Positions 2,371 to 64,000 of a stretch of DNA of 64,000 nt are shown one piece after another. The stretch covers positions 36,046,420-36,110,419 of the forward strand of contig CM067343.1 of assembly GCA_034190875.2 (NCBI GenBank). The letters run 5' to 3'. This stretch comes from Urechis unicinctus. Its lineage: Eukaryota > Annelida > Polychaeta > Xenopneusta > Urechidae. Both the position numbers and the translations under genes were made by a program. Numbering within the stretch: the first letter of the stretch is position 1; each line of letters begins with the position of its first letter. The notes beneath the pieces are model-generated. The model ran no database searches, had not been told where the DNA came from, and saw only the letters and a program-made list of their open reading frames with translations.

Positions 2371-3590
2371 GTCTGAAATCTCCGGATAGTTTGGCGTCCC
2401 GCAAACTTGTCTTTTCACAGATATATCTTATGCTGTAAACTGATTTATTGCTTCGCATTAAGCGCTATCGCGCTTTCACGCCCCCGCTACATTACAGCAT
2501 AATACATGCGCAAATTATTACCCACTCTCTTTATAATGCTGCACAATAAGGACCAAATGCCGAGCGGCAGCCATCTCGATCTTAAGCCAAGAACAATGAT
2601 AACGCATTTTTAACTGTTTTCTTGTAGTATGGCTTATTCCTTTCAATGTTCGTTGTGTCTTAAGTGCGCTACCTAAGGTGTACCTTTTTGTTTGATAAAC
2701 GTTGACTAATATTTGTGGATTAATTTAACCAATAAAACCCAGCTACCTTTAGAGAGAGCTTTGATAATATATATATATGCAATCAGAAAAGGAGTAACCA
2801 TTAACATCGCGGAACCCTTACAAATAACACCCGTTGCATCATGTGATTTTGTGTAATCGAGAATGGGATTTGTGGCAGAGGCTACTTCGACTTGTCCAGT
2901 TACATCCAAAGGCCTGTTTTATGCTTGACCAGACCGGGTAGAATCATTTTCACACCGCGTATAACTGAGCCGGCTTAACTAACAGCTTATGGTTACAACA
3001 TCCTAGTTAATGCTTCAATTTCGGTAGCGACAAGCTATTGTGATCAACCGATAAAAACACATGAACAAGGGCTTCACTGTTTTAAGAACCGGTAGCACAT
3101 TATCACCTTCATTTGCCAAGGCTGTCTATGCTTCCACGGTCATTTCCTAATCCATTTGTAGTTTTGACGAAGCCACTGATTGATTCTACATCAGCACGTG
3201 AACTGTACAATATCGGCTTGGTAAGATTGTGGATGATCGGTCTGCCAAAGATAAAGTGACCGAAGAGCCAGAACAATTAGTAGTCTGTTCTTTTTCTAAA
3301 CACATAATCAAAACAAATCAATCGCGCGGTTACCCGCAGGCTCAATAGATGTATTGACATCACAATACAGTAGCAATAGTTAGGATACGCCCCCCATCGG
3401 TCCATATGCATGATATATACAAACTGCAACATTGGGAGGGACGTTCTGCTTTTATTTAACTCATCACATGCGTTGTTTATCAGTGCAGATTTTTTAGGAC
3501 TGGATTGCGGGATACCAGTAATGTATATATGAGGAGTAAATAGATGGCAGATCATCAAGAGGTGATTGTTAGCTGCTTACTGCACAAGTA
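2371..3590. repeat. Large repeat copy A, block 1
   Basis: Matches 35,721-36,785 in copy B in the same orientation. The 20 bases at 2381-2400 are identical to 35,730-35,749, and a further anchor at 2851 matches 36,170. Most bases agree with frequent small indels. A more diverged relative lies at about 29.4-30.3 kb, and its partner at 59.2-60.1 kb. No coding frame survives between copies. Confidence 0.85.
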
Positions 3591-4660
3591 CCGCTCTACC
3601 ACTCATAACTCAGCTAACCAGATGCACCATTGTGTAACACTGCATCTGAACTGACGCTGCAAGTTTGCTATAATTAATGATTCTAAACAACTAATTATCG
3701 TGAGAGATGAGCTCTCGGTTTTTCGTTTAAGCAGAGATATGTCTTCTCCATCCGCGACCTTGAGTAATACTTTTAAGGTGTTACCTGTGCCACGGATGGA
3801 CTAGTATTATGAGTGCTCATACATTAAATCACAATTACTTCGTCCAAAACCACCAACAAACCATGATGGATAAGTCTATAATATAACGATTGACAATAGG
3901 AGCCGCTATACAACAATGCATATGGACAAGATTCGAATATGTATACTAATTGCTTTCAAATTGATTCGTATGAAATGCTGACCATGTCGTGAGGGTGTCG
4001 CGCGAAGTAGGCCTGCTTGATCGTCCTTTACCCAGCAATTCTCGAAGCCATTCTTCTCGTTAGGCTTAGAATTCATTTTGGAATGGAAATGAAATAGAAG
4101 ACAATATGTTGCTGATCGGATTTTTAAACCGCTTTCAAAATATCATATTAAAAAACTACACGCGGGGCGCTCGCCCTATAACATTCATTACGTGGGTTGA
4201 GATTTGTCGACTGTGGTGCAAGGAAGTATTAGACTGGTTGGGTTATGGAGGACATCACTGCGCCGATGCTTGGGGTATTTAACAAGAAAACGAGGTCAGC
4301 AATGAATGTAAACGCTATTAATCATTTATAACGCGACCGTCTGGCGCATGCGTGTGGGTGCAATATCCATCTTGGCAGTGCGTGTCAAATTGGGATTTTT
4401 TCCCGTCCCTTCTGTGTCTTTGATAGGCAGCTTCCTTGTGTGGTCATGGCATGTGACATTTTAGAGAGGACGTTGTTGGCATGTGCCAGGTATGCACTGG
4501 CAAAGGTGACAGTGAACTGGCAAAACTGTAGGCTGCAAAAGGACATTCAGAGCTCTGATTTCTAGGTGCTGATATGTTGGATCTGATTTTCGTCGAGTCT
4601 AAGTAAACATTCCACATATGCTCTTTAAAGATTTGTTGATCTGAGGTTCGAATGATTGAC
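3575..4660. repeat. Large repeat copy A, block 2 (three copies)
   Basis: Present in all three units: here, 38,215-39,235 (B) and 62,400-63,490 (C). The 20 bases at 3981-4000 recur at 38,618-38,637 and at 62,831-62,850. A 16-base anchor at 4475 recurs at 39,087 and 63,311. This is the best block for judging the order of copying. A minus-strand open frame (4444-4797) is partly kept in all copies but changes frame and length, so it does not look selected as protein. Confidence 0.9.
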
Positions 4661-4799
4661 ACGGTTAAAAAAGCGTAAGTAGAGAACATTAATAAAAATC
4701 GACATATTTCGATACATTTATTATTTTTTCGAGCATTCAATCGAAGGTGCAAATACTCTGTTACCGACACCAAATCAACCCAGCAGATGTCCATCACAA

Positions 4800-5200
4800 T
4801 ATGATGTCTCTGCTATTGCTCAAACTTACATGCCTAACGACGCCCAAAAGCATACATGAACTAACTACAATCCCACTAAACTGATGCAGAGTATTTTAAC
4901 GAATGAAACTAATGAATGGTTATTGGTTGAAGCGCGAGAAATACAACCTTTGTCAATTGTTAAGCCAGTGCAATTCAAGCCAAATATATCAGCCCAAAAA
5001 ATTGGCAAAAACTAAGCATCACCAATAAGGGTTTGTGGAGTAACCGAGCATGGGATTTTACGACTGCTGTACATCAAACTCGTTCAATTTTATAAGGAGG
5101 TTTGGTACATGCTTACGTAAGCGCCATGTAAAGCATAACTGTAAAGCGACGCAACACTCATTGCAAAATAAACCATGCTATTTTTGTTCATTCTATAAGC
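4800..5200. repeat. Segment shared by copies A and C, absent from B
   Basis: Matches 63,600-64,000 closely, including the run around 4815-4850 (63,615 onward) and a G-G-G-A-T-T-T-T-A-C-G-A-C-T-G-C-T-G core near 5050. Copy B jumps from its equivalent of 4645 straight to its equivalent of 5698 (at 39,238), so about 1 kb was lost in B. Diverged fragments of the module also occur at 57.6-57.9 kb and at 33.9-34.1 kb. Confidence 0.85.
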
Positions 5201-5697
5201 AAGAAATTTAGAAGTAACAAATTCGTCATTAACACAATATACGTTGACATTGATGCAAATATAACACAATGTGCTAGTTGTATGAGTCGATTGTAATAGT
5301 AAACATTACCAACCATCTTTGAAAGCATATCGAGAAGAAACCAGAACCGTTCTTCTTGCTACCTACTCTATGTTCAAAAGCATGAACATCAACACCACTT
5401 CAATTGTCGATGGTCAGCATGTGTAGGATACAACTATATATAATCAGACACAACTGGCGAGTCTGCAACTAAAGTTCGTACTTTTATGCCACAGATAGCA
5501 TATCACTCAATAACCACCTGACAATAAACTAATACGCGGTGTTACGGATAGCGACACATCTTCAATTCAAGTGTCCTGGTAGTACCACATCGCCAGATAC
5601 CTATCAACAAGTAGTACCAGTGCAAATATGTTGACGATCAAGCCAAGCATTGCGTAATTTTGGCATAATAACATACTGCCACAGTTTCACATTGACA
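5200..5697. other. Copy A segment without recognised gene
   Basis: No partner in B; C runs off the window before it. Weak similarity to 57.9-58.25 kb (for example a shared AAACTAATACG run at about 5526 and 58,234). No coding character. Confidence 0.45.
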
Positions 5698-6945
5698 ATG
5701 AATCATACAAACTGAGCGAAGGCCTCTATGCGTTAGTGCCCAAATTATATGTCTATCTGTACAATATTGAAATGAATTTGATCAATCTCAGTAGCTGGAG
5801 TGCTGATGGATTCATGCTACCGACTTATATATGCTTTTTTTCAGGGCATGGAAGCATATTAGGTTATGAGCGATTATGGATGAGTTGCACGTTTATGGGC
5901 TGTAATCGGTACCTATTACCATGGAATTACACGGCAACAGTTGCTTGCAATAAAAACCCACTGTGCGCTTTCAGCAAGCCGGCAAGCCGACCAGCTGTAT
6001 AATTGCCATAATTCAAATAACTCCAATACATATGATGTCGGTTTCAAAAGCCAGCACACCCCAAAGGTAATTAAGCTAGTCTTTCAGCTTGTTGTAGAAT
6101 GTTGGTTTCTCGCCTGCACGCAGTTCATTCATATAATTTTAGAACTGTCTAGCTGCCTTATATTCAAACCAAGCGAGACATTAAAGTAATCTACTGAGCT
6201 GTTTAAGATGCATGGTGGCCGCGCATGCAGTGCGTGGAACGTATTTCGGTTGCTAGTCTATTGCTGCCTGTTTTTTCATCGACATCTTTGTTAAACAGAC
6301 GAAATTCATGGCAGCATATTCCATGTTTTCAAGGTCAACTGTAGCATTCCTCTCCTGAGTTCATTTTTGTGCTTCATATTAGCACAAAATAACCCTGTAT
6401 TGTCCTATTTCTAAAATATAGAACCCCAGTATGAGGCTGCATTGCGATAGCATGCCAGCACACATTACAGGCATTGTGGTTGGCTTCTACCTAGGCAAAT
6501 ATTATGATGTATTTCTGGGACATATATTATTCGTTGATTGATGAAGCAACTTTAGCTATAAGACATCGTTAGTAAGTGGTCAAGTGTTTGATTGATATTT
6601 CCATATGCCATGGTGTTATGCTCTCTTAAGACCTATATATAAGAGTAGAAACATGGTGCAAACTAGTTCGATTACTTCTGGGAAATATATTTTGACTCGC
6701 CAGCATGATTGTATCAAGCAAATGGGAGTGATACCCACCCATTTAACAGCCCCGTGCTTTTGCATAGGAGGAACTGCTGCCGTGAAAGTAAGTAGTTTTC
6801 AGAAGCAGGTGAGAATACAACGGAGCGCAATGGAACATGTTACAGGGGATTTAAACTTTTGGCTGATTTAATGCTACGGGCCAGGCTTAGTGTAATGTAT
6901 TGCATCGATCTGCACGTGATCATAAAGAGGGTTAGGAAATGGGAT
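5698..6945. repeat. Large repeat copy A, block 4
   Basis: Matches 39,238-40,605. The 20 bases 6421-6440 are identical to 40,091-40,110, and 5741-5755 equals 39,280-39,294. B carries an extra piece at about 39.70-39.80 kb and further differences to 40.03 kb. The plus-strand frames here (5736-6002, 6605-6871) are shifted in B and are not genes. Confidence 0.88.
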
Positions 6946-8074
6946 TTTCATATGAACTTGCTTAGCGGGTGACTGCAACAAATGGCCAGATGGACGCTTC
7001 CCTTAGGAGCTGCTCACTCGCCCGTTGCTCTTTTCGTTGCACTATTGGGCTTAGCACGTATAGTTGGCATGCTCAACTGCGGCAAAGATTTTGCTACATT
7101 GAGAGTTTGAAAACATTCATTTTGTGGTTTCAGTTATGGATGTCTATCACTATAAATACGTGTCCCCACTGCAAAGAAACTCAATCCTTGTACGGAGAAG
7201 TTCTCTGAAAGCTAAAATAGATAGCTGTGATAAAACAAACCTTTTAATGCTACTATTTGTAGTGGCGATTTTGCCATTTGTTTATTTGTCAGCTTCTAAG
7301 ATATGGTTCACCTTTTCAACCCATTATGCTCCCATTACAATCTAATCAAATCTTACGAATTAGATATATTCATCGCCTACAATGTCAGTTGCTGCATGAT
7401 GCGTTACTAATGGTCGCATTAAGTGCTTATATTTGGATTTTATTCCTTTTGATGTACACTGCAGGCAATCTATCAAGATAAACTCCAACTTATTGCCAAC
7501 CTTGTGGCTCAGTTCATAAACTTATTAAAAATATTTGTATAGGAATGCAAGATATGCGTGCCGGAAGATGTTGGAGAGCATTTTGTCCATACTGAAGCCG
7601 CCAATTGGATCTGATTCCCAATCCATGACCCGGCAGTCCATTCGTTTGTCTACTAGAATACATTTATATTTCTTTATTCCCTGTTTGTAAAGACGGTATC
7701 TAACTCGATTTATCAATCGAAAGATATTTGCATCAGACAAGAGGATAAGCTCTGTTATTTTATATTGACAATGGTCTCGTCGACTGTTACTTCGGAGAAT
7801 GTATTGCTGTCCATTTGATACTGCTTGTTGTTTGCGAAAACCACGTAAAGCAGAGCTTTTGTCTAGCACACAGCAACACATTTTAGCAGCATATGTTCAC
7901 AGTGAGCGGCTGCTTTATCCCTTATTTTGCGCCTGTCCACCCTGGGTAATCTCGGTGGTGATTTCTGCTTCTTTCAAGTTGGCATTCTGAACTCGTTGCC
8001 AAGTCATCCGCTACTGCTCTAATGTGCAGTGAATTGCAAACTTGAATTGCCTAAATCACCGCCCTCTGATTTTC
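6946..8074. repeat. Copy A module related to 30.4-31.4, 37.2-37.9 and 60.5-61.4 kb
   Basis: The direct B counterpart at this point is replaced by 40.6-45.2 kb, but diverged relatives exist elsewhere. 6955-7000 resembles 60,513-60,575. 7378-7440 resembles 31,119-31,175 and 61,009-61,070 (a GTCAGTTGCTGCATGATGCG-like core). 7540-7590 resembles 31,290, 37,430, 61,180 and 62,050. It therefore belongs to the older repeat layer. Confidence 0.6.
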
Positions 8075-9790
8075 AGTCCCTGTGATTTATATCCGCAAAT
8101 GTTTTTGTCCCGACCTCTTATAGTGCATAGCGTCATTCGCACGGCTATGATGTTTGCTACTTCGCTGCAGCACTGTCCTCAAACATCGTATGTTTTGCAT
8201 CAAATACTTGAACCATTATACTTTCAACCCACATGGTATCATTGCGTTTACGTCTATCCTCATGCGTGTTACCTCTTCATAATCATTTTCTTACAGCTAC
8301 AAATGCCGATATTTTGCAAGGATTTATTCCAGGTATTGTAATGATTCTCATTATTACCTAACACCTGGTCACAACAACACCGATAGCAGCCTCTTGAAAC
8401 ATGTTGAAGTAGTTTAACTACCAAAGACGATAAGAAGCTTGATGTATGCTGTATGCGTGTAAACGAATTTTATATGGGCTGCGATAGTTGTTATTTGTGC
8501 GCAGTCAATTTGATGCAATGCTGCAAACCTTGTCAAAAGAAATTCATTGGAAAAGAAAACATGTAGTACCGTAAAGCCAACGTCGCCATGGTTAATGTGC
8601 ATGTACAATAATAATATATTTGTATGGAAGTTAAAGTCGAGTTGATACAATTTTAATATATTACCCGCAAACTAATGTACACACTGCGTTCTATAAACCC
8701 TCGACTCCTTTTCATAGCTTTCGTCTACTAACAGCACCATTCAATAGTATGTTTCATCATATTTATTTATATATTGAATCCATTCCCTTGAAATATGCAC
8801 CCCGCACCATCAGATTCACAATCAACTCCATCAATTTATAACCTTGCAATATTGACATAATTAGAGTTTACACAAAGCCCCTAACTTTGGTCTCGCTACA
8901 AGATAAAGCAATGTATGGCATAATAGATGCCTACGCCATCGTACCTAGTACAAAACAGAAACGTTATTTTATTAAGCGTTGAACTGCACAGTAATGATGA
9001 GTGATACTTCACATATCCATTCGTAGTTGTCGATTGATGTTATGTATAAAAACCCGCTTTACCCGCTCTTCAATAACACACTCATTACCAGTAATGCCAA
9101 CTGACAAGTTACTAAGTGTTTCATGCAAAACGAATGTTACAAAAAACACGCAATGTTTGCGGTTTGCAATAGATAAATGACTTTTCCGCCACACAATCGG
9201 CTGAATGCGTTCTTCTCCAATACATTCCCCGATTTGCATTGCATTTGGCATTCTTGCATTGAAGAACCAACTGGAGCATAACCCGACTCGTCTTACCCTG
9301 TTAAGCACAGACTACAAATGTGCTTTCAAACGCAAATGGTAGTTTCCAGGGTAACTGACCTCTTACCATCCCGACAATTAATCAATATCAATATGAAAGG
9401 TCGAAGGTTTCTGATAGTGCAAGTCGCCCTGCATCTTTGATATTCGGCGATAAGAAGGCAAATGGGCGGCATCATATTACAGAGCTGAGGTATTGTAATG
9501 GCGTATATGCTGACTTTGCATGTCAATCGAACCTACTACATGCCCGTTAGTACCTATGATATCATAGGTGCAGACGAAATTTGACAAGCACCAATTAACC
9601 TGTATATGCGCGCGCACGTTAATCCTTATATTTGACGATCATGCGGACTTAGGTGTACATATCACTTTTATACGTGGCAAAACCAAGCAGAATAATTATA
9701 GTTTCAACTATCAATAATACAGGCGAGGTATTTTAAGATTTTGGTTAGTTAATGTGTATCCTATACCCATTTCATTCGATTTCCCAGTTG
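8075..9790. repeat. Large repeat copy A, block 5
   Basis: Matches 45,195-47,020. The 20 bases 9431-9450 are identical to 46,641-46,660 (offset 37,210, the largest in the window because B gained 40.6-45.2 kb). A shorter, more diverged relative is at about 32.55-33.05 kb. Confidence 0.85.
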
Positions 9791-12720
9791 ATTTTTTTCT
9801 TTTCATTTGAACACAAACATAGGCACTAAAGTACACTGAATAACTCAAACAATGGTGCGTGGCGGAAATTCTATTATTAGTCAAGTCATGGCCTCACGAT
9901 ATTCCACCCATCTTCGATTCCCGTCTCTAATTCACCTGCCAATACATTTGCATTCAAAACCAATTATATGTGTAGCTTCTGGTATGCCTAAAAGGTACTC
10001 CAAGAATTACTCTTCTCAGACGACATCGCATATACACGCATTATAATAGACACTAAATGAACCTCGATCATTTAGCGATCGTTTATTTATCATCAAAACG
10101 GTGCAAACCATGATAAGATGATCGCACTATGGTGGCGACAGTCTTTTATGTTGTACAATTTCATGTAAGATGATGCGGCGCCATTTGCTAAATTTACCTT
10201 AAGCGCAATAAGAATTTGTCCAATCCGAATGTATTTGCTCATTTAGATATATGTCTATACCCGACTGATGTTTTACGTGTTTGTTAATTCGTAATATTGA
10301 GCTATAATGCGTTAGTGATATGTTCAATACGCTACTAGCCAATTATTGGAATTCAATGCTTATACAACCGAAATACTCGCGAACGCATTGGAAAAACTCA
10401 ATACAGACTTTGCTTATTAAGAACATTTGCATTCCCAGAAAACGAATAGGCAGCACCCTGCAAAGAAATATCCGGAATAATAATCGCTAACTTGGGTCTG
10501 TTAGCTATTTCCTCTACATTTGTTGTAGGTGCAACAATATTATCAGGATTATCAGGCTGTCGAATATGCCTGTATATTTAACTAGCTTATTGTTCAGAGC
10601 ATCTATGTTATTTTCGTCAATATGCGGCCTCAGATATTTGGAACAGTCGGTTTTATATATATTTGCATCATTTAGGGTATAGTAGGGTTCTCATAATATA
10701 TCCGATTTGTTTCTGGGCTGACGAATTGTGTAGGTAATTATTCCAATATGTAGAGTTAGATAGAGATTGTCCCATAGGCGCATGAATACAATATCTGTCT
10801 ATATCATTCTTAAGCCACCTCAAGAAGACGTGCCGCCCTTGAACCGGAAGTTTCCGTGGATGATTTCTAACAGCTAACATAAAAAGGCTCACAGTATTTG
10901 TGCTTAAAGTTGCGATAGCTAATTGTGGTGGGACCGAGTGGTAGACAGGGGGTTGGGGAGGAGGGGGTTTAATGAACGTCACATCATGTTGGAGAAAGCC
11001 ATCAACGAAAGCTAGCAAATATGGTAAATTGCAATCCACAATTCAAGGCAAATCGCTCACTAGCTGCAAAGAAAACTGGTTTTCAGCTGTGGTCAATGCG
11101 GGAATGACTTATATTTTCTTATGAGATTTAAATTAAATACCATCGTTATTATGTAAAAAAGTAGGATATTTATGTCGCTGTTTTACATCGAGGCCGAGAT
11201 GCCAATTGACTTTAACGCTGCTCGTTTAATACTCAGTCCTTCACCAGCTACCAGCGAACACGTTAACTCGACCTTAAACGGTAATTGCCTTTCTGAATTA
11301 ATCCATGTTTAGCATCCTTGTTTAGCATCGATGCTTAGCATCCACCTTTAGCATCTATGTTAAGCATTTATGTTTAGCACTCTCTCGTCACATCATCAGC
11401 CTCCAGTTGATATATAGGATACCCATCATACCGTTTATGGCAAGCAGAAAATGTTATTGCAAGAACAATGAATCATTTTACCCAATTAGATATTTACCCG
11501 TGATGAACACTAGATTTGGATCCTTTTGTTGGTTTTCGTAATACAGCCTTGTTCTGTGCAAATATATTTGCTGCAAATTGCACGAAAGCATTGGCGGTGA
11601 AGTTTAACAACATTACTATGTTATACTGCCTATTTAAGCAATACACTAATTAAGTCTCTACAAAAAAATTTCTTCGAAAAATCTAGTCCCATATTTGCAT
11701 TATTTGAAGAGAAGTCAACTATTGTGTACACAATAACGTATGAGTTACACCGACAAACAAGTGATGTAACACACGGCGACGATAAGCGATGTAATGTCCA
11801 ACTATGTGACAACTTTGTTTTTAACAAATTGGTAATCGTTGACAGATGTGTTTACACGTTGCTTTACCTGGCAAGACAATGTGTCGAAAATGGCAAGCCA
11901 AGCCAAAACGTCCTTTACATCGACCGAGATGTACCAGAGCGAACACCAGGGTACAGTGTAACAATATTTAATGGTCGCTCAAAATATTTTCATGGAATAT
12001 GCGATGTGTTTTAGAACGCATGAGCATTATTCGGATAACCAATTTTCGGAGGGCGCAAGCACCTTTTTAATCTGCCACTTATAGGGAAACGTTCACGATA
12101 TTAGGATATGCAGGACAAGCAGTTGCAGTTGGTGATGGAAAAAAAATTGCCGACCTAACGGATGTTTATTCAGTACCCCTAAAGACATATAACGCTCAAT
12201 TAGAAATATATACTCTCAATGGTGAGGCTCGCATGATTTTCGGTACCACATTTAGTCATATGTGCCTTGCATAGATATCAGCGTCATAGCACTATTAAAA
12301 CGGTGCAAGTATAATTTGAACAGCCGTAAGCTCAACTCGTATTCCATACTAGGACGAACGGTTTCTTTAGAACTCTTTAAACAACTCATCGCAGATCTGT
12401 AGGGTTAGAAAAAGATGAACAGCAAATCGGAGTGAGTTACTTTTTAGAATCTGTCGCCTAACCGGACACATTTTTGCGCTCCTTTTTATTCTGTCTCGGC
12501 TTCTTAATTAAACCAATTGGGTTAATGCCAGCTGTTTTTCTCAATATGAACCCGTTTCTGACAAGGGGTTCCTTAATTTTCACCAGATACCCTTCCTCAA
12601 AATCATCAGCATTATTAAACATATATGTCTATATATATAGATTCGCCAATTTCACAACGCTTACAATTAGACAGTCCAGTTAGACAGCAATAAAAAATGA
12701 AAATATTTGACCATATTTAG
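9790..12720. other. Copy A-specific 2.9-kb segment
   Basis: In B the flanks join directly (CCAGT at about 47,020 then the equivalent of 12,721 at 47,024), so this is an insertion in A or a deletion in B. CCAGTT occurs at both ends (9784-9789 and 12,675-12,680). The left edge begins with a T-rich run and the right edge has an A-rich run, but no clear terminal inverted repeat or polymerase-like frame is visible. The longest frames (10,668-11,039 minus; 11,724-12,014 plus) match no family I know. Confidence 0.55.
11305..11382. repeat. 13-bp minisatellite, six units
   Basis: Six contiguous 13-base units of the form ATGTTTAGCATCN with one to three changes per unit and no indels: units start at 11305, 11318, 11331, 11344, 11357 and 11370. 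Sits inside the copy A-specific segment. Confidence 0.9.
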
Positions 12721-13645
12721 CACCATTGGTATCTCCATGTACATATGAGCCAGCAGTACCTGAATGACCAACAAGTAGCATGGTTAGTGAAAAAGTTATC
12801 AGTTGCACACTTATTTTAAGGATAGAACATAATTAGCTTCTAATTCCGTAGGTACAAAAGGTGCACCGAATGTAAATATACTTGAACAAAAATTACAATA
12901 TTCAAAAGCGATATAGTAACACATCTGGTGAATTATGATTGTAAGATAAATTACGGAGGAGCTTAATGGGAAAATCCACAGTAACACCATGTACGGCGAT
13001 ATACGAGCAGACGTATTGCTTGATCGAAGCAGTGAATAATGATGGTCGATCATCGTTCTCTTTCATTCGTAAAACGTCTCGGTTGAGTACCACCTATGAA
13101 GAGAATCACAAGATTGGCAATTGCGCGCGATTGCAGGCAATGTAGAAGATTCTTATTTGGGACAGCTCAAGGACAATTGAGGGCTTGTGAGGCAAGCGCA
13201 ATGGGGACCATACGCTTAGTGTGTGTTGTTAAGCAAGGTGGTATGCTGGTGAAAACACATACCACTCTTTCGCATTGTTGCTTCACATATTTATACTGAC
13301 ATGTTATATAAATCGGATATAATTTTTCACAGTGGATTTACGTTATCATGGTGAATTATTTAGCGTATACGGCATGGTAAGGGGTCTTGTGCCCGACCGC
13401 TTTATTAAAGGGTGGTCGATTAATCATAGAATAATGGTTGCACGCGCATGCACCCATATAGTCGTCAGAATACCAATGACTTACTGCATTAAGCTGCAAT
13501 GACAAAGTTTAAAGGTATTTTAAGTGTCATGTCACCGCCATGTTGCAAATCTTAGAATAAGTAGTTATTTTCTCTCATAATCGTACCTTAATGGTTCTGC
13601 CAGGCGGTCAGATGACATTTCGTGATATGAACAAATCCATAATCT
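12720..13645. repeat. Large repeat copy A, block 6
   Basis: Matches 47,024-48,025. The 20 bases 12,736-12,755 equal 47,039-47,058, and 13,046-13,065 equals 47,422-47,441. The central part (about 13,020-13,130) has older relatives at 24.98-25.09, 33.33-33.40, 41.40-41.50, 42.08 and 56.72 kb, and inverted at 44.45-44.52 kb. B has about 80 extra bases near 47.17-47.25 kb. Confidence 0.88.
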
Positions 13646-13732
13646 CCACCGAAAATTCAATAACGGCGCAGATAAATTGGCAGAAACCATTACTCGCCCA
13701 GCAAACATCGCATTAAAGCATGGTTACGCCCA

Positions 13733-13762
13733 AATATGATACCCCTGAATATGATACCCCTG
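13733..13762. repeat. Two-copy 15-bp tandem repeat
   Basis: AATATGATACCCCTG occurs twice without change, at 13,733-13,747 and 13,748-13,762. Confidence 0.9.
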
Positions 13763-14937
13763 ACGTTTTAAGACCCACTGGAATCTCACCTTACTAATAA
13801 AGATTTGTTCTGTGAATAAAGCAGGATGGAGAGTATGGCAATCGAACGCTAATGACAAAACATCCATATATCACTGTTAGGCCGTAGGAATTCTCGACGC
13901 ACACACTTGATATATATTTTGCGAATTACCTTGACATTTATGAGTAATTTAGAATTGGATTTGTGGCAACTGTCCTTCACACGTGTCTAATTACATTGTA
14001 AGGCGTGGTCATTCACACGTGTGCGTAGAGAGTTATCGCAAAAAAAACCACGTGACCCGGCCTATCAGGTTATTTCAAGATGGCAGCATGAAAACAAATC
14101 ATGACATATCCAAAAATTCAATTATCACAATAGATAGGATGTGATCATTTCAGATGTATTCCTTTACTAGTTTTATTTCTTGATTAAACTATTAATAGTA
14201 CTGACGCAAGTTCCACTTAAATCACAAATTGCTCATTTAATTTTGGCCAAGATACCAGCTCGTAGAATAACCCACTAAAGACTGTCAATTACACACACAC
14301 TATCTTTCCAAACTCACTGAATGGTTATTTCGCAATAAACAGTTCGTTGCATAACTTGGACATTGTACTATCATTGGCGAAAATTAATGCTCTGTGCATA
14401 CGATGAAATGTGTTTATCAGACTAAGCTTATACAATTACGCACAAATTGAATATTTGTTTGGGCTTGATTGTAGAGAGCTCAATACTTTCCTCATAGATG
14501 TATGCCACCGTAACATTATGCTTACTCCACAGCGCGACACAGCTTAAAACTGGGGTATGTATTGGACTGGGGTGAGTAAATAGCGACGACAAACTGAATA
14601 AATTTCAATGACATTGTACAGCAATAGGTGGTTATTATCTCAACAAGATGCAGGCTTCAAGCCAACACGGCCAATCGTGTAGAAGCCAGCGATCTGTAAT
14701 GAGCTTTATCAGTTGCCTATGTTGCCGCGTGTGACGTCAGAACTTGTTGGTAAGCAGGGATCGCGATATAAACATATAATGGCATTCAAAGAAGAGAGCA
14801 AGGATCATCCAGTTAGTAGCTAGAAAGACGGATCTCGTAATTGTTATTAATTCTTTACTAACGCTTGGGACTGATTGGTTCGGGATCAGGTCAAATATGC
14901 GTGACGTATTTATTTCGTTCAATTAGGTTCAAACAGA

Positions 14938-15830: not shown

Positions 15831-15878
15831 GAGCTTATTCTAATCGAGGTTCTTGATGAATTCGAGTAGAATAAGCTC
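15831..15878. repeat. Perfect 12-bp inverted repeat (hairpin)
   Basis: GAGCTTATTCTA at 15,831-15,842 is the exact reverse complement of TAGAATAAGCTC at 15,867-15,878, with a 24-base loop. It overlaps the end of a short open frame (15,597-15,869) that I do not recognise. It could be a transposon end, a recombination site or a transcript hairpin. Confidence 0.85.
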
Positions 15879-17846: not shown

Positions 17847-17849
<3 letters not shown>

Positions 17850-17892
<43 letters not shown>

Positions 17893-17963: not shown

Positions 17964-18025
<62 letters not shown>

Positions 18026-18036
18026 ATATATATATA

Positions 18037-51176: not shown

Positions 51177-51557
51177 GTGCCAATTACTTCTCATAGATAA
51201 CTTGGTTCCTGCAACATCCACCTGTGATATCTCATTCACCATAATTGTCTTTGCAGTTGGATGCGGGTGTTGTGCAATGTTATAAAACATGGACTGTCCC
51301 TATCTATGCACACAATCTCATGCAGCCGACCGACCTTACCAGTTGTTCAGACAACAGCAGAAACAAATCTACTTGGTCAATCTTTGCTTATGCTCAAGGT
51401 ATTGCCTTTATGTTAACATACATATTTACATGTGTATGGTCGCGACAATCAATAGCAGAACATACAGGCGGATGTAGATGTAGCTCGCTTATCATGGAAG
51501 TTTATGAGCTGTTACAGGAGGCGGGCGAGAGCCATCATCGGGAGGGGGTTGTGGATT

Positions 51558-51798
51558 AAATTGCACTTGTATTTATACTTGTGATTTCTTTGGAAAGATG
51601 CACTGCTACAAACCTAATTGAATGCAACTAATTGCATCCGTCACCATGTTATATTATGTAGAAGGCGATAACCATGCTGCAATGTATCATATGTCGCATC
51701 ACATGATGCTACGACAGCTGCTTTTTGCATTAAACGTATGATTTATTTCTATATTGAAGAGGTAACTAATTATGAATGATACTACGCACATTAGATTA
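51558..51798 (+). repeat. Local direct duplication, copy 1
   Basis: Nearly identical to 52,436-52,683, about 880 bases downstream. The two are much closer to each other (for example GAAGGCGATAACCATGCTGC in both) than to the single equivalent in A (20,812-21,060), so this is a recent event within B. Confidence 0.9.
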
Positions 51799-52040
51799 AC
51801 CTTATCCTCTACTTAATCATATACTGTCTCTTAAGCCATCGCAGTTCAAAATATCGCTATGTTTCATCCTTATTTAAATTAAATCTGCCATCCAAGTCAT
51901 CTAAGATAACAAATATTTCACCGAGCTATTTAGCTTGCAATATTTATTACACAGCAACAGATGTTTAATCAATGACTTGTATTCCACATACGTAGCCTCT
52001 AATAATTTCATTCCGGACGCGAGAGCTGCAGAAAAGCGGC

Positions 52041-52104: not shown

Positions 52105-52435
52105 TAATGGTAAGTGATCTTTGACACTTGAAATCATAAAACCGAAAAGGCTTCAGTTATTCACTTACCATTCTGTTGATATTAATGCATCATCAGCTGA
52201 ACAGAATATCCTTTATTACATGTTCTGATCAGAATCGTATAATTGGGAAAGAGCGAATTCAAATTAAAAGATATGTTCATTTTACGAGGTGCAACTGATC
52301 TCATAATAATCAGTGGCATGCTACTATTGTACGCTCATAAATGCTCTCAAATAATCTGGGATACGTTTTGTGGGAATCACATCAATGCTTAACTCATATC
52401 GGCACATCGCGGCTTACAGTGATAGCATAGACATG

Positions 52436-52683
52436 AAATTGCACTTGTATTTATTTTTGTGATTTCTTTGTTAAGATGCCCTGCTACAAACCTAATTGAA
52501 TGCAACTAATTGCATCCGTCAGCATGTTATATTATGTAGAAGGCGATAACCATGCTGCAATGTACCATATGTCGCATCACATGATGCTACGGCAGCTGCT
52601 TTTTGCATTAAACGTAGGATTTATTTCTATATTGATTTTAGAAGAGGTAACTAATTATGAATGATACTACGCACATTAGATTA
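52436..52683 (+). repeat. Local direct duplication, copy 2
   Basis: Second copy of 51,558-51,798; retains about 7 bases (ATTTTAG) lost from the first copy, as in A, so this one is closer to the ancestral form in that detail. Confidence 0.9.
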
Positions 52684-55540
52684 CCCCAATGATAACGCTA
52701 TTATCCTCATGAAAACATGTTTTTATTTGAACGCAAATGGTATTCGCCACATAAACCGACAAAATGCGACCTAAACCGTTGTGCAACAGTAATTTAAAAA
52801 AAAATGTTTTATGGTTAATTTGGCATCTTACAGCCGAGGATCACCTAGAATTGGCGCAGGATGAAACCTGTGTGGTGGCATCATGTGAGAGCATATCGTC
52901 GCTTCTTCGCTTTTTCATCCTGTGGATTTTATTTGAAAAACGTTATCAAGCCTTATATGATGTTTTCTGATACAGATTCGACCATACTCAACACATATAT
53001 GCTAGTATATTGACTAGCTCGCCCCCGCTACCTGCTTGTTGTTATAATTTAGTGTTTTCGAAATATGTTGCAATAGTTTTAATAGAAAAGCGGTAATGAC
53101 ACAGACTATGCTTTATGCTATCTAGAGTAAGGTGACCTGCGTCGTGAGATAACAACAGCCGTATTTAACGATATAATCATATCAGTCTATTTGAATATCA
53201 GAATAAAATATGATGGCGTGCACTAGGATGTACAAAATACTGTTCGTGTGTTTCAAAACGGCTGCTATGTGGTATTCAGTCCCTAGGATTTCCATCCTTG
53301 ACATATCTCAAAGCAAACCTATCGACCTCCTCTAAAACACTCAGCTTTAGGGTAGCGGCGATCATGTTCGCCATTTCGCTTCATCATTATTGGTCCTTTC
53401 ATACGTCCTACAGAAATACCATCAACAATACACGTAACACACTAGTGTTTATCATTATATCCACATGTGCAAAAGAGCAAATGACCTTTTCGCAAATATT
53501 CACATACAGATAAAGAAGCAAGTAGACCAGATCGCTATCTTGCAAGGATACATTCCAGGCATTCGTGTGATTCCGATTAGTATATCGGTGCATTGTATGT
53601 GGTAATGTCAGGACCGGCATTATGCACTTGTATGCAACACCGCTGTACCTATCAGTCCAACTTGGTAAATAATCGTGATGATTAGCATGGACTACGGAAG
53701 CGTCGGTATAATCATGCGCCAATAGCCGCAACTAAATCCATGGTCATAGAGTATTCAAACTTCTTATGTGTGCAGATCATTGGTTGATAGTAATCATTGC
53801 AAGCGTCAATAAAGATATCCAACGCCCAACGTTAATTCTAGCATGTATAAACAGATATGTCCATAAGCTCTTCATTGCAACCAGAACTAGGTAAGTCTGA
53901 CGGTTTCAGGTTGCCTAGCCCATATTGCGCCTGTAGACGGTAGCATAGTACGGGATATTTGCTATGCATCGACTATAACGCACCGCGCGATTTCCTTACA
54001 GTTACGGTGCATTCGGTAGTTATCGAGCTAGTGGAAGTATTTTCAATTCGTTGAATATTATCAATTACACCGAGACGAATCAACACACCTGTTCATGCTC
54101 CACCAGAAAAGGTAAGCGATTAGTTCGTTTTTGCACTTTGTACGCCTATACACCGTTCAGGTAAGAGGAATGATCGTGGAGAGCGATGGCATGCTACAGG
54201 CCCAGTTAATTGCTTTGTTACAACGGCAGCTGCTGCGCGTCAAACTTCTGCCTAGTTGCATAACGCCCTGACTAATGCTACGGCACGTGCTGACTGTGTG
54301 TAATGAAGCGAAATGTAGTTATGCAAATTTAAGTCGAGTTGTACAAATATAGCAAATATTATGCGTACAATGTACTCAGCACTTTGGCAACTGTTAAATA
54401 ATATCGCAATATCATTTCATTTATTCATGCATTCAATCCCTTTTGTAATTAACACTCAGCCCTGTGAATGTATTTATATGAACCTCACAATATTGGCCAT
54501 ACATAATCGGCACTTCACACATAGCCTGATTCCATAGCAATAGTTTTAAGATGTCCACTACCAAGTTGTCTTCATTTAAAGATGCTGAAAGCTGTAGGGT
54601 GTCTGCACTATAAATGTCCAGCGCGAAACATAGCATTGATTGGGCTAAACCTGCGTCGGCGCGGTTGCTATAGGTGGTAATACATGCCTCCATTTGTAGA
54701 CATAATGATGTGAACAGAACATGTCATACAGCTTTACTATGCCGCATCTAATGCAACCAATGCCAACTAACAAATTGTAACATAGCATTTGCTAATGAAC
54801 AATGAAATTTCTCCATCATCCAGATATTGGATATATTGGCCGTCTTACCTACGAAGTGTTTGGATACGTCACTACACTCGTAGGCAGCAGCAATTCGACA
54901 CTGGACATACATAGAGAACTAATATCAGCAATGCAAGTAGTGAAGGAGTGAATTAGGTGGAACAAGCATTTTTGCATCGATTGAATTCACCAGAAGGGAA
55001 TTTCAATCAATATCTTCGCCTTTAACCCCATTTATTTGAATTTACACCCCATGCAGTGGACGCAATCAATAACTTGAGTATTTATAGTTCACATCTCAAT
55101 TACAGACATATCAGTAAAACTACTCCAAACGATGAGGCTCGCAATATTAAGCAGGATTGTTTTATCCTTCTCTTTGCGAGACCATTCCAAAGTCCTCCTC
55201 CTCATCAGCCAAATGCATTTAAAGGCATAATGGAACACGGGAAAACGTTTTGTTGCTCATATTTTAGTCCGCGTGTCAATAAAATGCCGCTTTCCGTATT
55301 TAATATTCAGCAATAACTTTCGACGCACCATCATTATCTGGGTAGAAATGTGTCGCCATCTGGTGAAAGTGGATCATGTAAGTATTCAGACGTAAATTAT
55401 TTTACAGTGTTTACATGGTTTATATTATACCAGGCGAATATATTAATATAACATGAACATAGATCCATTGTCAAAATGGAATCACGTCATAGAAGTGATT
55501 AAATCAGCCAACTTCTCCTACCGTGACTAAAACATGCACG

Positions 55541-56509: not shown

Positions 56510-56970
56510 CAAATTTAATGGTTCGAATGTGAATTGCAAAGAGACTGATTTATGCGCGTTGTATTTGTGCGATAGGTTCTTTCTAGTCAATACAATTTTA
56601 TTCTGTCAGAACAATGATGTTTAAATAATCGCTCTATATTTCAACGTTGGAAACAAAAGCTATATAGATAATATATCGATATTCATATTTGCCATTGTTA
56701 TCGCCAATTGCGTTTGTGCACGCCGAGGTAGTTAATACTGATTGTCCATCATCGCTTGCTCCACTAAACTGCCATGCTTAAACCCCCCCAGTGGAGATAT
56801 TCGTAAGTGGCAGTCAATTGATGACAAATGAATCATTTCATGATGCTATATCGTAACAGCAAATATTTTTGCTGCCGTATTTACATAATCATTATCCCAA
56901 TCATGCATTTTTTAGCATTATTGTACTCAGCATGATATTGTGATCGGCGCGAGAGCGTGGGCGCTGGGCA
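56510..56970. repeat. Large repeat copy B, block 9
   Basis: Partner of 24,785-25,250 and 41,205-41,790. Followed at 57,030-57,400 by a further diverged relative of the 41.0-41.1, 25.05 and 42.6 kb pieces. Confidence 0.8.
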
Positions 56971-57400
56971 CTTAAACAACGAAATAATGCATATTATATC
57001 ATATGTCGTCATATGTCAGTCATAACACCATCTCTTAATGTTGTGTTTCTAAGTATTGCATCTATGTTGATGAAATGAGAGCGACAACTGTCGTACTTAA
57101 ACGCATTGATTGTAAAGAATAATTACCCTGTATAGTGCGATTCGAAAGATTGGCGCAATCGCACGGGGAAAAGATCGGTAGATTATTTTACCGAGAAAGA
57201 CCTAACACAAGATAGCCGCAGACGCACTAAAATGCACGCGCTGTGCACATGACGTAGAGTCTTATTGGCGGAGATCGTTTATGTAGCAGTGATTTTTCGC
57301 TGATCATGAAAACAGTATAATAGTTCTACCAGGCAGTCATTTGGCGTGTTTTCATACACATATATCGAAATTCAGCACTGACCATTAATATAGGCGCAAG

Positions 57401-58857
57401 TTAACTTGCAAAAATGGTTACCCGTCCAGGAAACAATTTCGCTCACACCTTCGTTTAGCACAGTCATAGACTGAGTTCGTAATTTGTTAACTGTACCAAA
57501 TCCAACCTTCTTATGTTCACTCTGACATTACTAACAGCGCGAAATCTGTGCGCCTTTCAAAAGCCTGTATATATATTAACTTTGCATAACAATGAATAGA
57601 AAGTGTGGTTATCGCAAGCCGTTGGACGTTGTTCTTGGCTTAGCCATTACAATTCTCGCCAAACACATCAGTCGAAAAACCTAGGTAAAGTCTCGGATTC
57701 TCCGACACTGATACAGTTGAGTATGGAATTTTATGACTGCTGCTCGTCACATTCGTACAGTTAAATTGAAAGGAATGGTTCACTCACACATGAGCGCAAT
57801 GTTTAAAACATTTAAAGCGTCATTGTAAAACGATGCAACATTACACAGGCTATTAATTTACCCCAAAACAGCAGCGTGTTATCATTTTGTACCCTAAAGA
57901 AGTTGTTCGCAATCTTGAACTTGTACACTATAGTATAAAAAGAATGATTTGCAAGATGACATTTGCGCATATGTAATAATGAATATGCTAGTACATATAA
58001 ACATTTTGTAAATCATGCCTAGAATAAACCTGTACATAAATGTTATATGAACATAAATTTCTTTTCAAATATCAGTTGTCTTGGAATTGCGGCATGGCAG
58101 AGGAGCTATGAACCTTAGACAACCGACTGGCTACACACAATCATTCCAACTGTCATGGAGAATGGGAGTCAGCAATCAAAATTTACTGATACCTTTCTTG
58201 TAAAGATTGGGTGATACTCAACCACGTGGCAGTAAACTAATACGTGGCGTTACTAATAGTGGCCTATTATTTTACATTATTATTATCATTGTCTGTCGAT
58301 CGATATTTTTCTCATAGAAGTGTCATTGTAGTGGTGTTGACGAACAAACGAAAAAGTAATCAAACTTACGCGCTAAGTGGCCTTAGCCAATGCTACGAGC
58401 CAGGCTTAATGTCAACAATCGAATAAGTGTACACGTGACCCTATTTCAAGGTGATAATATTTCCGTCCAGTTAGATCACAGTCCATCAATATATGCAATA
58501 GACAGCTAAATCATTCAATAAATCACCCTATTCAAATTAATATCCAGTTTATATGCCTAGCAATATGTTCAACAACTTCATTAGTGACTTTACATAAAAC
58601 TTATCTTCTTTACCACGTTCTCCTTGGTCTACAAACAAACTGACTCTTGTACGAAAATAACAGTTACCATATCGTGGGTGTCATGCATGTGCTTTTCGGT
58701 TTGTTGTGTGTACCTGAGCAACAAGGCTTAGAGTGAATTTAACTTACGACAGCTACTAATTATCAACCAGAACACTGAGATCTAGCGGTATTGTATTCAC
58801 TGTATTATCCGAACCTTGATATCCATCAACCACTTAATAGGCTAACAAACCATAATA
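57401..58857. other. Stretch at the LINE-equivalent position in copy B
   Basis: No LINE sequence here. 57,590-57,900 is a diverged copy of 4,950-5,160 (GAATTTTATGACTGCTGCTC versus the A form), also related to 33.87-34.03 kb. 57.9-58.25 kb is weakly like 5.4-5.55 kb. No gene. Confidence 0.5.
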
Positions 58858-61790
58858 CACTACAATCGATCAAATGGTGCAACATGCCCAAGATTATTTC
58901 AAGGTAAACACAGAGAAAAATATTCTATTGTTTACACGGAACTTTCTGTGCGGCTCCAGGAAGATGTTAAGTAAAAATGCATGCTTGCACTTGTGAGGCT
59001 TTTGATGAATGCTTTTAAAAATATACTCAATTAAATAATTGCCAGATGTCATTATTGACACATATCGCAAGCAGTTGTCCGGATTAAAGGGCGAATTAAA
59101 ATGGTAAATGTATGTACCTTTAACACTGGCTTTTGACTCGAATATAGCCACTTCGGCCTGTTGCCAACCGATTGTCCATATTAAATGTCCCCTTCTGATC
59201 ATCTGTCATTTGATATTCAGTAGTTTCGCTTTGTCTAACAATAAACACCGGTATAATAATTAAGTGAACCAAATATATCTTTATATGATATCTTTATTAT
59301 CATAATAGGACGGGCCTTTAGTATCTTGAAAGGCCAACCAATAACTGCAGTTGTTCTCAATCATGCGATTTACCATAATTGAGTCTGGGATTTGTGGCAT
59401 AGGCCATTTCAAAACGTCCAATTGCATTGGAGGCGTCTAGATCCAAACGTTTGTGTAATGCTTAATCATACATGATGGAATCCGGTATTCTGATGCAGTA
59501 AGCAATAACATGTATTACTGAGAAAGCGGAAAGAACTGCTGTTGTATAATGCATCCTAGCTTATTCTTCAATGTTGACACTAACAAATCTTTTGAACAAT
59601 CACAACCCCCCCAAAAATAACTGCGATGTCGCTGCGTTTTTATAACGCAAACCCATTATTAGCTACGTTTGCCCCAATTCTCCTTGCTTAAACGGTCATT
59701 TAGTGACGCATTTGTTGTAATGGCGATGCCACTGATTGCTCCTATATCAACTTATGCTATGGGCAGTGTGCCATATAATCATTGCACGATTGTGGGTCAT
59801 GGGTCTACCAAAGATAGCGTAACCGTAGTACCAGAACAATTAGTAAAAACCAATTAGCAAGTGAATCACGCTATTACCTACAGGTTCTGTTATTTATTTA
59901 CAATAAAATGCTATAACCATATTTGGGCTACCTATGATCAAGTAATACCGTACGAAGAAGATGAATGTTCTACTTTTATTTAACTGATCACATGTCTTTT
60001 GGAGCAACCATTTTGTGGCAGTGCCGCGTTTGAAAGACATGTTTGCGAGGTGGATACAGACAGGTGCATATTTCGGAAAAATTGAGGGCAAGCCATTACG
60101 AGGTAAGTTTACAGATGGCAAAGATTGCACTGTGCTTTCTAACGATTCATTGTCGTTGCACACGGTCCATATAACAATTTGTACTTGACTATCGGTGCTT
60201 TATAACTACAATGATTATAATAAAACTAGAGTTTTTAAAGCTGGCATTCCTCGCAACTTTTTCGGGATAATAACCGTAGATTAAAATTACGCAATTATTT
60301 TGTACTGACAGGAAGGACCTAATTCTGTCATAAAGATCTATTAATACCTGTCTGATTAAGCCTTTATACTAAAATTCTGTCATACAAATCTATTGATACC
60401 TGCTTGGTTAAGCCGTTATACTAATACATAATAATACTCACATAACGCTTCATTTGGGGCGCAGTAGAGCATGGGGTAGAGCTTGGGTTTTGACTGGAAA
60501 CGAGCGTTAAGGGATTTCAATATGAACTTATTCAGTGGGGACTGAACTGCCGCCTGAAATCATTGGCAGATACACTCGTACAGCAAAAGCCGCTCGCTCG
60601 CCTGTTGCGCATAAACTTTTAAAAAAGAACTGTAATTTCCTCCTTCCGTTGCGTTTATGAACTTGACACATAGCATGAATGGTAAGCATGCTTCCACAAT
60701 GATTTCACTATGTCTTGAGTTTACAAATTCTATTTCAATGACATACTTGAATAACATTCCAAATATATATGTTGTGCTTTTTCATGTTACGGGTATTCAT
60801 CAATATGTGTCCATGCAGCATTGTTAGGCTGGTCATGTACGGAAGTGGAGAATATAACCGTGATATGGAAAAATGAAGAGATTGTGTTAAGGTAATAACT
60901 CCTGTTGCAACATTGTCATTAATTGATTTGTTGGCTTCGAAGTTTAAACTAATTTTGCTTCTATTAAAATATAATGGAATATAACAAAGTGAGTATATTG
61001 ATCACTTAGAATGTAAGCTGCCGTATGATGTATTAATGTTCGAATGAGGTGCTCATATTTGCAGTGTTTCAAACACATCGTATCCCTTTGATGTATAAGA
61101 AGTACGCTTATTGCCAATGCACTCGTGGCCTTAAGACTCAAAGAATATATATATACGCATGAAAGATATATGTAAAAGAATGCATGATATTCAAGCAGGA
61201 AGATAGTGGAGAGAATTCTGCCCAGATGTAACGTTCATGTATAATCAGTCGTTGTGATGCTTATTTTTGTATTATTTTCATATTTGCTTTCATTCGCAGC
61301 GGTTTTATACCATTCAGTTGTCTTATGGCCCTTTTTTAGATATGCTGTCCCCTTACTCGTGTGGTGACAATGTACCGTAACATGTACCTTGGTTTGCAAG
61401 TCGTATAGCTAAGCAGCCCTTCGACAAAACTGGCAATCGCACTGTTCATAATTGTCGATAGCATAACCATCTTGAGAGAAATGTGTTCAATCCCGTATTG
61501 CCAACCTAATAACATCATCTATAATTACTCGAGAAAATATGCATTAACTCATAAATAAAATCTTTCAGCCCTATTCAATGCAGCTTGCACGCCTCAAAGT
61601 GATGGAATGGACCATATTCGATGCTATACCCGAAGTACAAAGGGTAGTCACGATCGATCGCTTTCCTCTCCTCATCAGTAATAATAAAATGTGCTCTCAG
61701 AGGAGAGATCGTTGAGTAAAAAAGGCGACATAGTCATACTTAACAGCCAGTTGCAATTGCAACGCGAATTATTGATCTACCGTTTTACAA
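58858..61790. repeat. Large repeat copy B, block 10
   Basis: Partner of 29,085-31,900. B has extra bases at about 59.12-59.24 kb and at 60.52-60.60 kb, the latter preserved in diverged form near 6.96-7.03 kb, so A's block 10 lost it. Confidence 0.86.
60322..60425. repeat. Two-copy 52-bp tandem duplication
   Basis: AATTCTGTCATA...TTATACTAA occurs at about 60,322-60,374 and again at about 60,375-60,425 with several changes. Copy A has a single unit (about 30,550-30,606), so the duplication is private to B. Confidence 0.8.
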
Positions 61791-61791
61791 T

Positions 61792-61880
61792 CTGATCTCA
61801 GGTGGAATGTTTATGCATGCAAAATGTTTTTGTACACACAACCGGTTAGTTGAAAATTGACCAACTGGCAACTGGCAACT
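61792..61880 (-). repeat. Junction element, inverse of 45.02-45.10 kb
   Basis: About 90 bases, reverse complement of 45,016-45,104. Includes a short duplication (CAACTGGCAACTGGCAACTAG). Sits between block 10 of B and the start of C. Confidence 0.75.
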
Positions 61881-61899
61881 AGCACTCGCCGGTTCTGCG

Positions 61900-64000
61900 C
61901 ATTAGTTAGTGAGAAGAATAGTTCATATTTTCAAGGTTTCAAACAACATTATTGGCTTCGTTTCCTTATGTTGCACAAGCCGGGAAATTTCAAGTGCACT
62001 CATGACCTTTCAGATCAGCTCCAAAAAACATCAAAAAAAGATGTAAAGGGATGCATGATATGCGAGCAGGAATATTTCGGAGAAAATTCTGGACAAACTC
62101 GAGCCGCCGGTGCCATAATTGTGCGAATCAATAAAATTAACCTGTTCCGTCACTTACATACACTTTTATATCGGCTCGTTAAGACGGTGGTTGCTGGTAC
62201 AACAACATATCAAATGCAATCTATGGCTTGATCATGAGGTGTAATAGGAATTCATAACGACTACAATTAGTCAATGAGCGATGTAAGTGGGGTGTGATAA
62301 CCAGCTCGTTACTCTCTAACTTGCCTGTATATCTCGCGATTGAGTGAGATTGAGTTTGGCCGAAAGCCTAGTGTATCCAGTTGTGGGCACAAAGCTTCAT
62401 TACAAATGTTGTAGCTCCTTACTCTAAAAGTCCCACTCTACCACTCATAACTCAGCTAACCAGATGAACCATTGGGTAACACTACATCCAAACTGACAGT
62501 ACAAATGTGCTACAATCAATAATTCCGAGCAATTGATCATCGTGAGATATGAGCTCTCTGTTTTTCGCTTACGCAGAGTCATCTCTTCTCCTCCCGTGGC
62601 CAATGAGTGATGCTTTTAATGGGTTACCTGTGCCACTGATGGACTAGTACTATAAGTGCTCATACCTATAATCACTATTACCTCGTCCGATACCACCAAC
62701 AAACCATGTTGTATACGTCTATAATGTAACGATTGACGCCAGAAGCCGCTATCCAACAATACTTAAAGGTAGAGACAAGATTTGAATATGTATGACTAAT
62801 TGCGGTCACATTGATTCGCATGCAACGCTGACCATGTCGTGAGGGTGTCGCGCGAAGTAGGCCTGCTTAATCTTCCTCAACCCAACAATTCCCGAAGCCA
62901 TCCTTCTTGTTAGGCTTAGAATGACAACGAAATAGAAGACAAAATGTTGCTGATATTATTGTTAATCCTGTTTCACAATATCAAATTCGAAAATTACATG
63001 TGAGGCGTTCGCCAAATTACAATCAAATTACATGGGTCGACATTTGTTGACAGTGGTTCCAGGAAATATTAGACTTATTTTGTTTTGGAGGACATCACTG
63101 CGCCGATGCTAGAGGTATTTAACAAGTAAACGCAGTAAGCAATGAATGCCTACGCTATCATTCGTTTATAACACGACCGCCTGGCGCATGCGTGTGGGTG
63201 TAATATCCATCTTGGCAGTGCGTGTCAAGTTTTTTTTCCCGTACCGCCTGTGTCGTTGATAGGCAGTTTCCTTATGTAGTCATGCCATGTGGCATTTTAG
63301 AGAGGGTGTTGTTGGCATGTGCCAGGTTTGCACTGGCAAAGGTGACAGTAAACTGGCAAAACAATAGGCTGCAAAAGGGCAAACAGAGCTCTGATTTCTA
63401 GGTGCTGATATGTTGGATCTAATTTTCGTTGAGTCCATGTAAACATTCCACATATGCTCTTTAACATTTTGTTGATCTGAAGTTCGAACGATTGACACGG
63501 TTCAAAAAGCGTCAGCAGAGAACATTGATAAAAATCGACACTTCGACACTTCGGCAAAAGCCCTGTTACCCACACCAAATCAACCTGGCAGATTAGAATA
63601 TGTTGTCCCTGCTATTGCTCAAACTTACATGCCTTTCGACGCCTCAAAGCATACATGAACTTACTGCAATCCAACGTAACTAGTGCAGAGTATTTAAACG
63701 AATGAAACTAATGAATGTTTATGGGCTAAAGCGCAAGAAATACAACCTTCGTCAATTGTTCAGCCATTGCAATTCTAGCCAAATGTATCAGCCAAAAACA
63801 TTAGCAAAACCTAAGCATCACCGACAAGGGATTGCGAAGTAACTGAGCATGGGATTTTACGACTGCTGTTTAATTATATTATGAGGTTTGGTACATGCTT
63901 ACGTAAGCGCCATGCTGAGCCCATGTAAAGCATAACTCTAAAGCGACGCAACACTCCATGGACTATCAAATCATCGCAAAATACAGCGTGGTATTTTTGT
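61900..64000. repeat. Large repeat copy C (start; runs off the window)
   Basis: Begins at the equivalent of 37,265 in B, then carries block 2 (62,400-63,490) and the A/C-shared segment (63,600-64,000). It keeps features of both A (4.8-5.2 kb equivalent present) and B (37.3-38.1 kb equivalent present), so it is not a simple copy of either. Confidence 0.87.

Follow-up and report, generated by a model that had tools for sequence, protein, structure and literature searches.

Repeat units and the modules within them

We analysed a 64,000-nucleotide stretch of the Urechis unicinctus genome (contig CM067343.1 of assembly GCA_034190875.2, positions 36,046,420 to 36,110,419; "the window" below, numbered from its first base), in which repeat pairs of two levels together cover 44,428 of the 64,000 bases. 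The window is 39% GC with a CpG observed/expected ratio of 0.91 and contains no N; it is eukaryote-like, and long reading frames are scarce in it. Self-comparison with blastn aligns two long units, A and B, in collinear same-strand blocks that run from 2331/35680 to 31899/61794, and the blocks that each of them shares with a third unit, C, run from 61895 onward in the same order and orientation (B with C starting at 37259/61895). Under permissive scoring the A/B start moves out to 2236/35588. Unit A, as aligned with B, thus occupies 2236-31915 and unit B 35588-61811, both on the plus strand, as is unit C, which opens at 61895 inside a module called W below and is truncated by the window end at 64000. 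The left flank, 1-2235, lies outside all repeat pairs, and no array repeat was detected in it. Identity between A, B and C in the collinear alignment is 74-90%.

These are head-to-tail units, longer than the 1-2 kb beyond which a macrosatellite or large tandem array is recognised; near-identical units, such as ongoing homogenisation should maintain, were not found, the divergence (K) between units being mostly 0.12-0.21 and star-like. An earlier note on this DNA, made from the sequence alone, had described three same-orientation copies in fixed order, which the A/B, B/C and A/C alignments bear out, and the positions of an anchor that it had placed at 4475, 39,087 and 63,311 map onto each other exactly. 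Its period of about 25-30 kb is fair as a description of spacing that is in fact uneven: the A/B offset is 33.4 kb at the start, 37.1 kb inside and 29.8 kb at the end, and the B/C offset is 24.2-24.6 kb. Its bounds for A (2.4-31.9 kb) and B (from 35.7 kb) are close to ours (2.24 and 35.6 kb), but the intervening "spacer" at 31.9-35.6 kb is mostly array DNA.

An older layer of repeats, overlooked in that note, also fills part of the interior of each unit. It is made up of seven modules, X, W, V, Y, U, P and Z, whose copies, both inside a unit and from one unit to another, are about 56-72% identical and follow one another in a loosely cyclic order. They were found by two methods with reversed-sequence controls: permissive self-comparison gave 87 real pairs at E<1e-3 (19 hits with E of at most 10 came from the reversed control, the best at 0.59), and further copies were placed by nhmmer with the monomer at 29400-35590 and with two-copy profiles, a profile search that printed no reversed hit below E 0.01. 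That monomer, our reference, is the most complete in the nhmmer search of the window (6191 bases, plus strand); it carries X-W-V-U-P-Z in 29.4-35.5 kb and is followed by the X of unit B. The general monomer length we estimate at 6-9 kb. Unless marked minus, all copies are on the plus strand. Module X lies at 2236-3572, 29483-30665, 35588-37224 and 59237-60522, with a trace at 13853-14037; W at 7026-7628, 30749-31334, 37244-37612, 60757-61226 and 61895-62234; V at 8041-9790, 22501-23905, 32446-33085, 45190-47022 and 53254-54776; and Y, which has part of P at its end, at 3566-5176, 24184-24783, 38204-39254, 55149-55533 and 62409-63974. U is found at 12720-13692, 24788-25385, 33172-33535, 41202-41708, 41961-42609, 44091-44664 (minus), 47023-48069 and 56510-56984; P at 4892-5690, 33824-34382, 57572-58386, 63682-64000 and about 43709-43939 (minus); and Z at 5699-7076, 34388-35507, 39238-40734 and 43289-43413 (minus). 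The plus-strand DNA between A and B (31916-35587) is the remainder of the third monomer (W2-V-U-P-Z) and was not found in B: unit B has no V-U-P-Z counterpart there, since its W-bearing block ends at 61.8 kb and the W of unit C begins at 61.9 kb.

Divergence, orientation and order of the repeats

The two levels differ in age. Fifty-nine alignments have 200 or more ungapped bases; K is below 0.30 in 19 of them (15 at 0.10-0.25) and at least 0.30 in 40 (36 at 0.35-0.55). Unit-level values are mostly 0.12-0.21 and monomer-level values mostly 0.37-0.58, with K given singly for alignments that reach 250 columns. Diverged monomers thus sit inside less diverged multi-monomer units, which is the arrangement of a higher-order repeat, with a few intermediate values of K and an imperfect monomer order. 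As judged from these comparisons there were evidently two ages of duplication, that of the monomers X-W-V-(Y)-U-P-Z first and that of a 25-35-kb multi-monomer block afterwards. In the single stretch of about 1 kb on which the star-like distances rest (1027 columns shared by A, B and C and aligned through A), there are 152, 143 and 149 differences between A and B, A and C, and B and C, respectively, and A, B and C carry 69, 75 and 66 changes of their own. The three units are therefore equidistant, and so should have arisen, or have last been homogenised, at nearly the same time.

Forty-nine of the 64 deep pairs are on the plus strand, and all 15 minus-strand pairs involve one block at 43.2-45.25 kb. 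This is the only inverted block, a reversed Z-P-U-W stretch at 43289-45185 (minus) that is present in unit B only. Within it 44433-44740 (minus) is 91% identical to 33091-33397; next to these stretches, identity in this inverted pair is 68.5%. When the modules are placed on a ring there are 13 forward steps, 4 back and 5 neutral or ambiguous, a result matched by 312 of 20,000 permutations; after unit-level copies are merged the steps are 10 forward, 1 back and 3 other (matched by 51 of 20,000). The order test is approximate, as the module lists were set by hand and Y, the inverted block and the reference monomer's own steps were excluded. Both the orientation and the order of the modules speak more for tandem duplication than for insertion.

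Several observations weigh against a simple two-level array. The two groups of divergences are not cleanly separate, with intermediate values of K of 0.24 (40511-41487/55869-56807), 0.26 (24788-25209/41202-41636) and 0.26 (the inverted pair), and divergence drops sharply in some stretches (K 0.068 at 21664-21985, and 91% identity at 33091-33397 beside 68.5%). The variance of divergence is 1.74 times binomial in stringent alignments and 5.81 times binomial in permissive ones; the drop from the latter to the former is probably due to misaligned gap-filled windows. The region 18.3-22.5/49.4-53.2 kb has a unit-level partner but no deep partner. Finally, the cyclic order is imperfect, and a plain count of neighbour order gives 55 same and 39 opposite; this count is not decisive, because wrap-around in a cyclic tandem array yields both orders.

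Four islands (21664-21985, 22298-22447, 13182-13331 and 6357-6506) have an A/B mismatch of 5-7% against a mean of 13.7%, and may reflect local conversion or constraint. The ratio of transitions to transversions is low, 1126/1349 = 0.83 in the unit-level alignments and 0.56-1.02 per unit-level block; ratios this low are unusual for animal DNA. Gap lengths of 4 and 8 bases, with 22 and 15 cases, are over-represented in the same alignments relative to the lengths next to them, and tandem duplication accounts for only a minority of these gaps; where the 8 copies of U, and likewise the 4 of X, are aligned, gap lengths are mixed.

Coding signal and the nature of the array

Mismatch periodicity in alignments of at least 300 columns (90-, 150- and 240-base windows) stayed under the mean shuffled maximum. 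Codon-substitution scores covered the 76 of 87 alignments, of both levels, with at least 150 columns; in six of them no more than 1 of 40 shuffles was as good (3.7 expected), and the top score, 37.4, compares with 36.2 for the mean null maximum. Exons were planted at 20% and 30% divergence and were counted as detected when they scored above all 20 shuffles. At w=0.1, 90-nucleotide exons were detected in 20 of 30 cases at 20% divergence and 25 of 30 at 30%, and those of 150-240 nucleotides in 30, 30, 29 and 30 of 30 (119/120 in total). At w=0.3, the detections among 30 exons of 90, 150 and 240 nucleotides were 12, 15 and 24 at 20% divergence and 4, 22 and 30 at 30%; without constraint (w=1), 2-6 of 30 controls were detected. 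Power is thus low for exons that are about 90 nucleotides long or weakly constrained, and the simulation stops at 30% divergence whereas the deepest pairs have 30-40% mismatch.

Six-frame Pfam searches of 45 of the 64 kb (1-15, 30-45 and 47-62 kb) gave no domain above cut-off, and only YqaJ (E 0.059) and SgrR_N (E 0.053) below it; they used 5000-residue pieces at some cost in sensitivity (the ASTER match that follows was not reported) and a mode that had no positive control. Ten long open reading frames (ORFs) were scanned singly, three from a non-LTR (long terminal repeat) retrotransposon of unit A, a long interspersed nuclear element (LINE), and seven others. Only one of the seven, 31935-32306, had a match (ASTER, E 0.0089; its 16.4 bits fall short of the cut-off, 22.7). 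Since the partner DNA (7658-7991) is interrupted by 4 stops in 101 codons and by numerous gaps that break the frame, we take the match to be chance. Comparison of peptides from all frames gave numerous hits, in which one stretch of DNA matched in several frames; they reflect DNA similarity and are not coding evidence. A minus-strand frame in module X (2780-2960 and copies) initially resembled a protein, and translation of four copies gave partly similar peptides of about 25-35 residues in some of them; the two X subfamilies differ, there are stops nearby, and its codon score is not significant. Conserved coding exons in each unit, the mark of a tandem gene cluster, were not found by these tests, whose power is low near 90 nucleotides or under weak constraint, and a hidden multi-exon gene family is unlikely as far as strongly constrained exons of at least 150 nucleotides are concerned. 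The units had been called gene-free; this holds for the shared DNA, in which no coding signal was found, but unit A carries the broken LINE at 26.1-28.4 kb. The match to a known RNA family that an array of structured RNA genes should give was not obtained: a search of the window found no tRNA, an Rfam scan of the full 64 kb gave no match at gathering score, and a lax RNA-family scan of 12850-24050 gave five weak matches, four of them within a TA repeat. A pattern made from module X had no match in viral contigs or genome contigs, and 21.66-24.04 kb had none among plasmids; the collections are viral, prokaryotic and plasmid, so that both results are little informative.

We think it probable that the locus is an ancient, now inactive and decaying two-level tandem array of non-coding DNA. 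The best reading is a frozen tandem array, macrosatellite-like or segmental, that is organised at a higher order and represents a known kind of repeat in a decayed state; the macrosatellite or segmental tandem array proposed in the earlier note fits it in form, with head-to-tail units and with shared DNA in which tests of measured power found no coding signal. The sequence shows that a monomer of several kb multiplied first and that a multi-monomer block of about 25-35 kb was later copied head to tail at least twice to give A, B and C; both steps presumably took place by unequal crossing-over or replication-based tandem duplication. Homogenisation would then have ended, and the array would have decayed since by substitution, small indels and unit-specific changes (the LINE in A and the inverted block in B). 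A jump from W to W at the B/C junction would likewise have cost B the V-U-P-Z part of its last monomer. Most likely the array has no sequence-specific role and is a relic of repeat-mediated tandem duplication. It is improbable that kilobase-scale monomers and 25-35-kb units once made up a concertedly evolving non-coding array whose units all froze simultaneously. A retired structural array of the chromosome, centromere-like or other, would be an example, and the islands at 21.66-21.98, 22.30-22.45, 13.18-13.33 and 6.36-6.51 kb would then be remnants of its function.

The array could instead be the relic of a tandem gene family, each monomer of which once had a gene whose exons are lost or unrecognisable, so that introns and spacers alone still align. 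Gene-bearing arrays with units of tens of kb do exist (AMY, with a 38.8-kb unit, is among those in passages of PMC2588610), short or relaxed exons are poorly detected (12/30 and 4/30 for 90 nucleotides at w=0.3), and there are weak hints in the tail of 6 of 76 codon scores against 3.7 expected, in the minus-strand frame of module X and in the ASTER match. We nevertheless regard such a relic as rather unlikely, with a top codon score barely above the mean null maximum, with stops and frame-breaking gaps in the partner DNA of the ASTER ORF, which the six-frame scan left unmatched, and with 45 kb scanned that contain no domain above cut-off.

Nested or repeated insertions of one large non-autonomous transposable element might also give a module set in several copies, one block of it inverted, and the LINE shows that the region tolerates insertions; there are 7-base direct matches near 3 of 8 junctions and an imperfect 11-base inverted pair at 9791-12719, figures that have no chance control. 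These short matches belong to single unit-specific stretches and not to the module set. The modules keep a single orientation apart from one block and run together in a mostly cyclic order, with no clear ends at the eight junctions, so that the "very large non-autonomous element" of the earlier note is unsupported and we find this explanation quite improbable. The assembly artefact that the note wished to see excluded, diverged haplotypes joined in tandem, is very unlikely: in place of two copies at allelic-level divergence there are three at the unit-level K given above. A divergence of mostly 0.12-0.21 would exceed the levels of heterozygosity known in animals. Moreover the LINE, the inverted block and many indels, some of kilobase size, are unit-specific, the older repeats lie inside each unit, and the window has no N.

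The array of non-coding DNA preferred here has counterparts among known repeats. Alpha-satellite higher-order repeats have diverged monomers inside more similar units, and identity between their higher-order units is very high. The two repeat levels are thus alike, and the difference is that the units here are decayed. The alpha-satellite repeat unit is 171 bp (in passages of PMC2588610), while the monomers here are of kilobase size. The human macrosatellites DXZ4 (PMC3218863), with units of 3 kb, and D4Z4 (PMC13138017), with units of 3.3 kb, likewise consist of head-to-tail units of several kb, and DXZ4 is also not obviously protein coding; DXZ4 copies, however, are >99% alike (n=17; passages of PMC2588610), as against 74-90% between units here. 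The best of these precedents is the human LTR arrays of chromosomes 13, 18 and 21, in which, according to passages of PMC2588610, six monomers of about 3.5 kb make up a higher-order unit; some units lack a monomer, presumably through unequal crossing-over, and one monomer has received a mobile element. Such features have a likeness here, but the monomers there are amplified LTR elements (same passages) and those here have no recognised transposable element origin; the units here, two and part of a third in view, have mostly reached K 0.12-0.21. The locus suggests that higher-order tandem duplication can occur with kilobase-scale monomers and without a detectable gene for selection to favour. 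With three units frozen together, the locus would record substitutions, indels and rearrangements of the host genome in neutral-looking form (for example, the transition/transversion ratio of about 0.8), and the array would matter more if it were long and chromosome-structural.

Unit-specific stretches and local repeats

The LINE of unit A (26101-28378, plus strand), the most evident gene-like feature of the window, lies in a stretch, 25.4-29.0 kb, that has no repeat partner. By its Pfam and PDB matches it is a broken element with endonuclease and reverse transcriptase in three overlapping frames: RVT_1 matches at E 1.4e-17 and Exo_endo_phos_2 at E 3.9e-5 (below the curated cut-off), with HTH_54 (E 0.037) and CDH (E 0.085) also below cut-off, and ten PDB sequences match at E<=0.001, R2 and LINE-1 reverse transcriptases among them. 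In viral contigs 7 stretches fit the pattern of its reverse transcriptase, none of them confirmed.

The eight unit-specific junctions, inspected for the fixed termini and target-site duplications of a transposable element, show only short matches: direct ones of 5-7 bases, reaching 7 at three junctions, and inverted ones. The 2.9 kb at 9791-12719 in A are absent from B, with a sharp boundary at 47022/47023 and the imperfect inverted pair near the ends, and are possibly an inserted element. Also without a repeat partner in unit A is a TA dinucleotide repeat at 17851-18093 (90% matches over about 121 copies). The left end of unit A has (CG)7 at 2225-2238, the only run of at least four CG in the window, which closely follows a tandem duplication of 33 bp at 2105-2171 (97% matches). 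Unit B contains a 52-bp unit twice at 60321-60424, and a local duplication of about 250 bp (51555-51805 and 52433-52690; 92% identical, K 0.054) which has a single match in A, at 20808-21062, and is recent.

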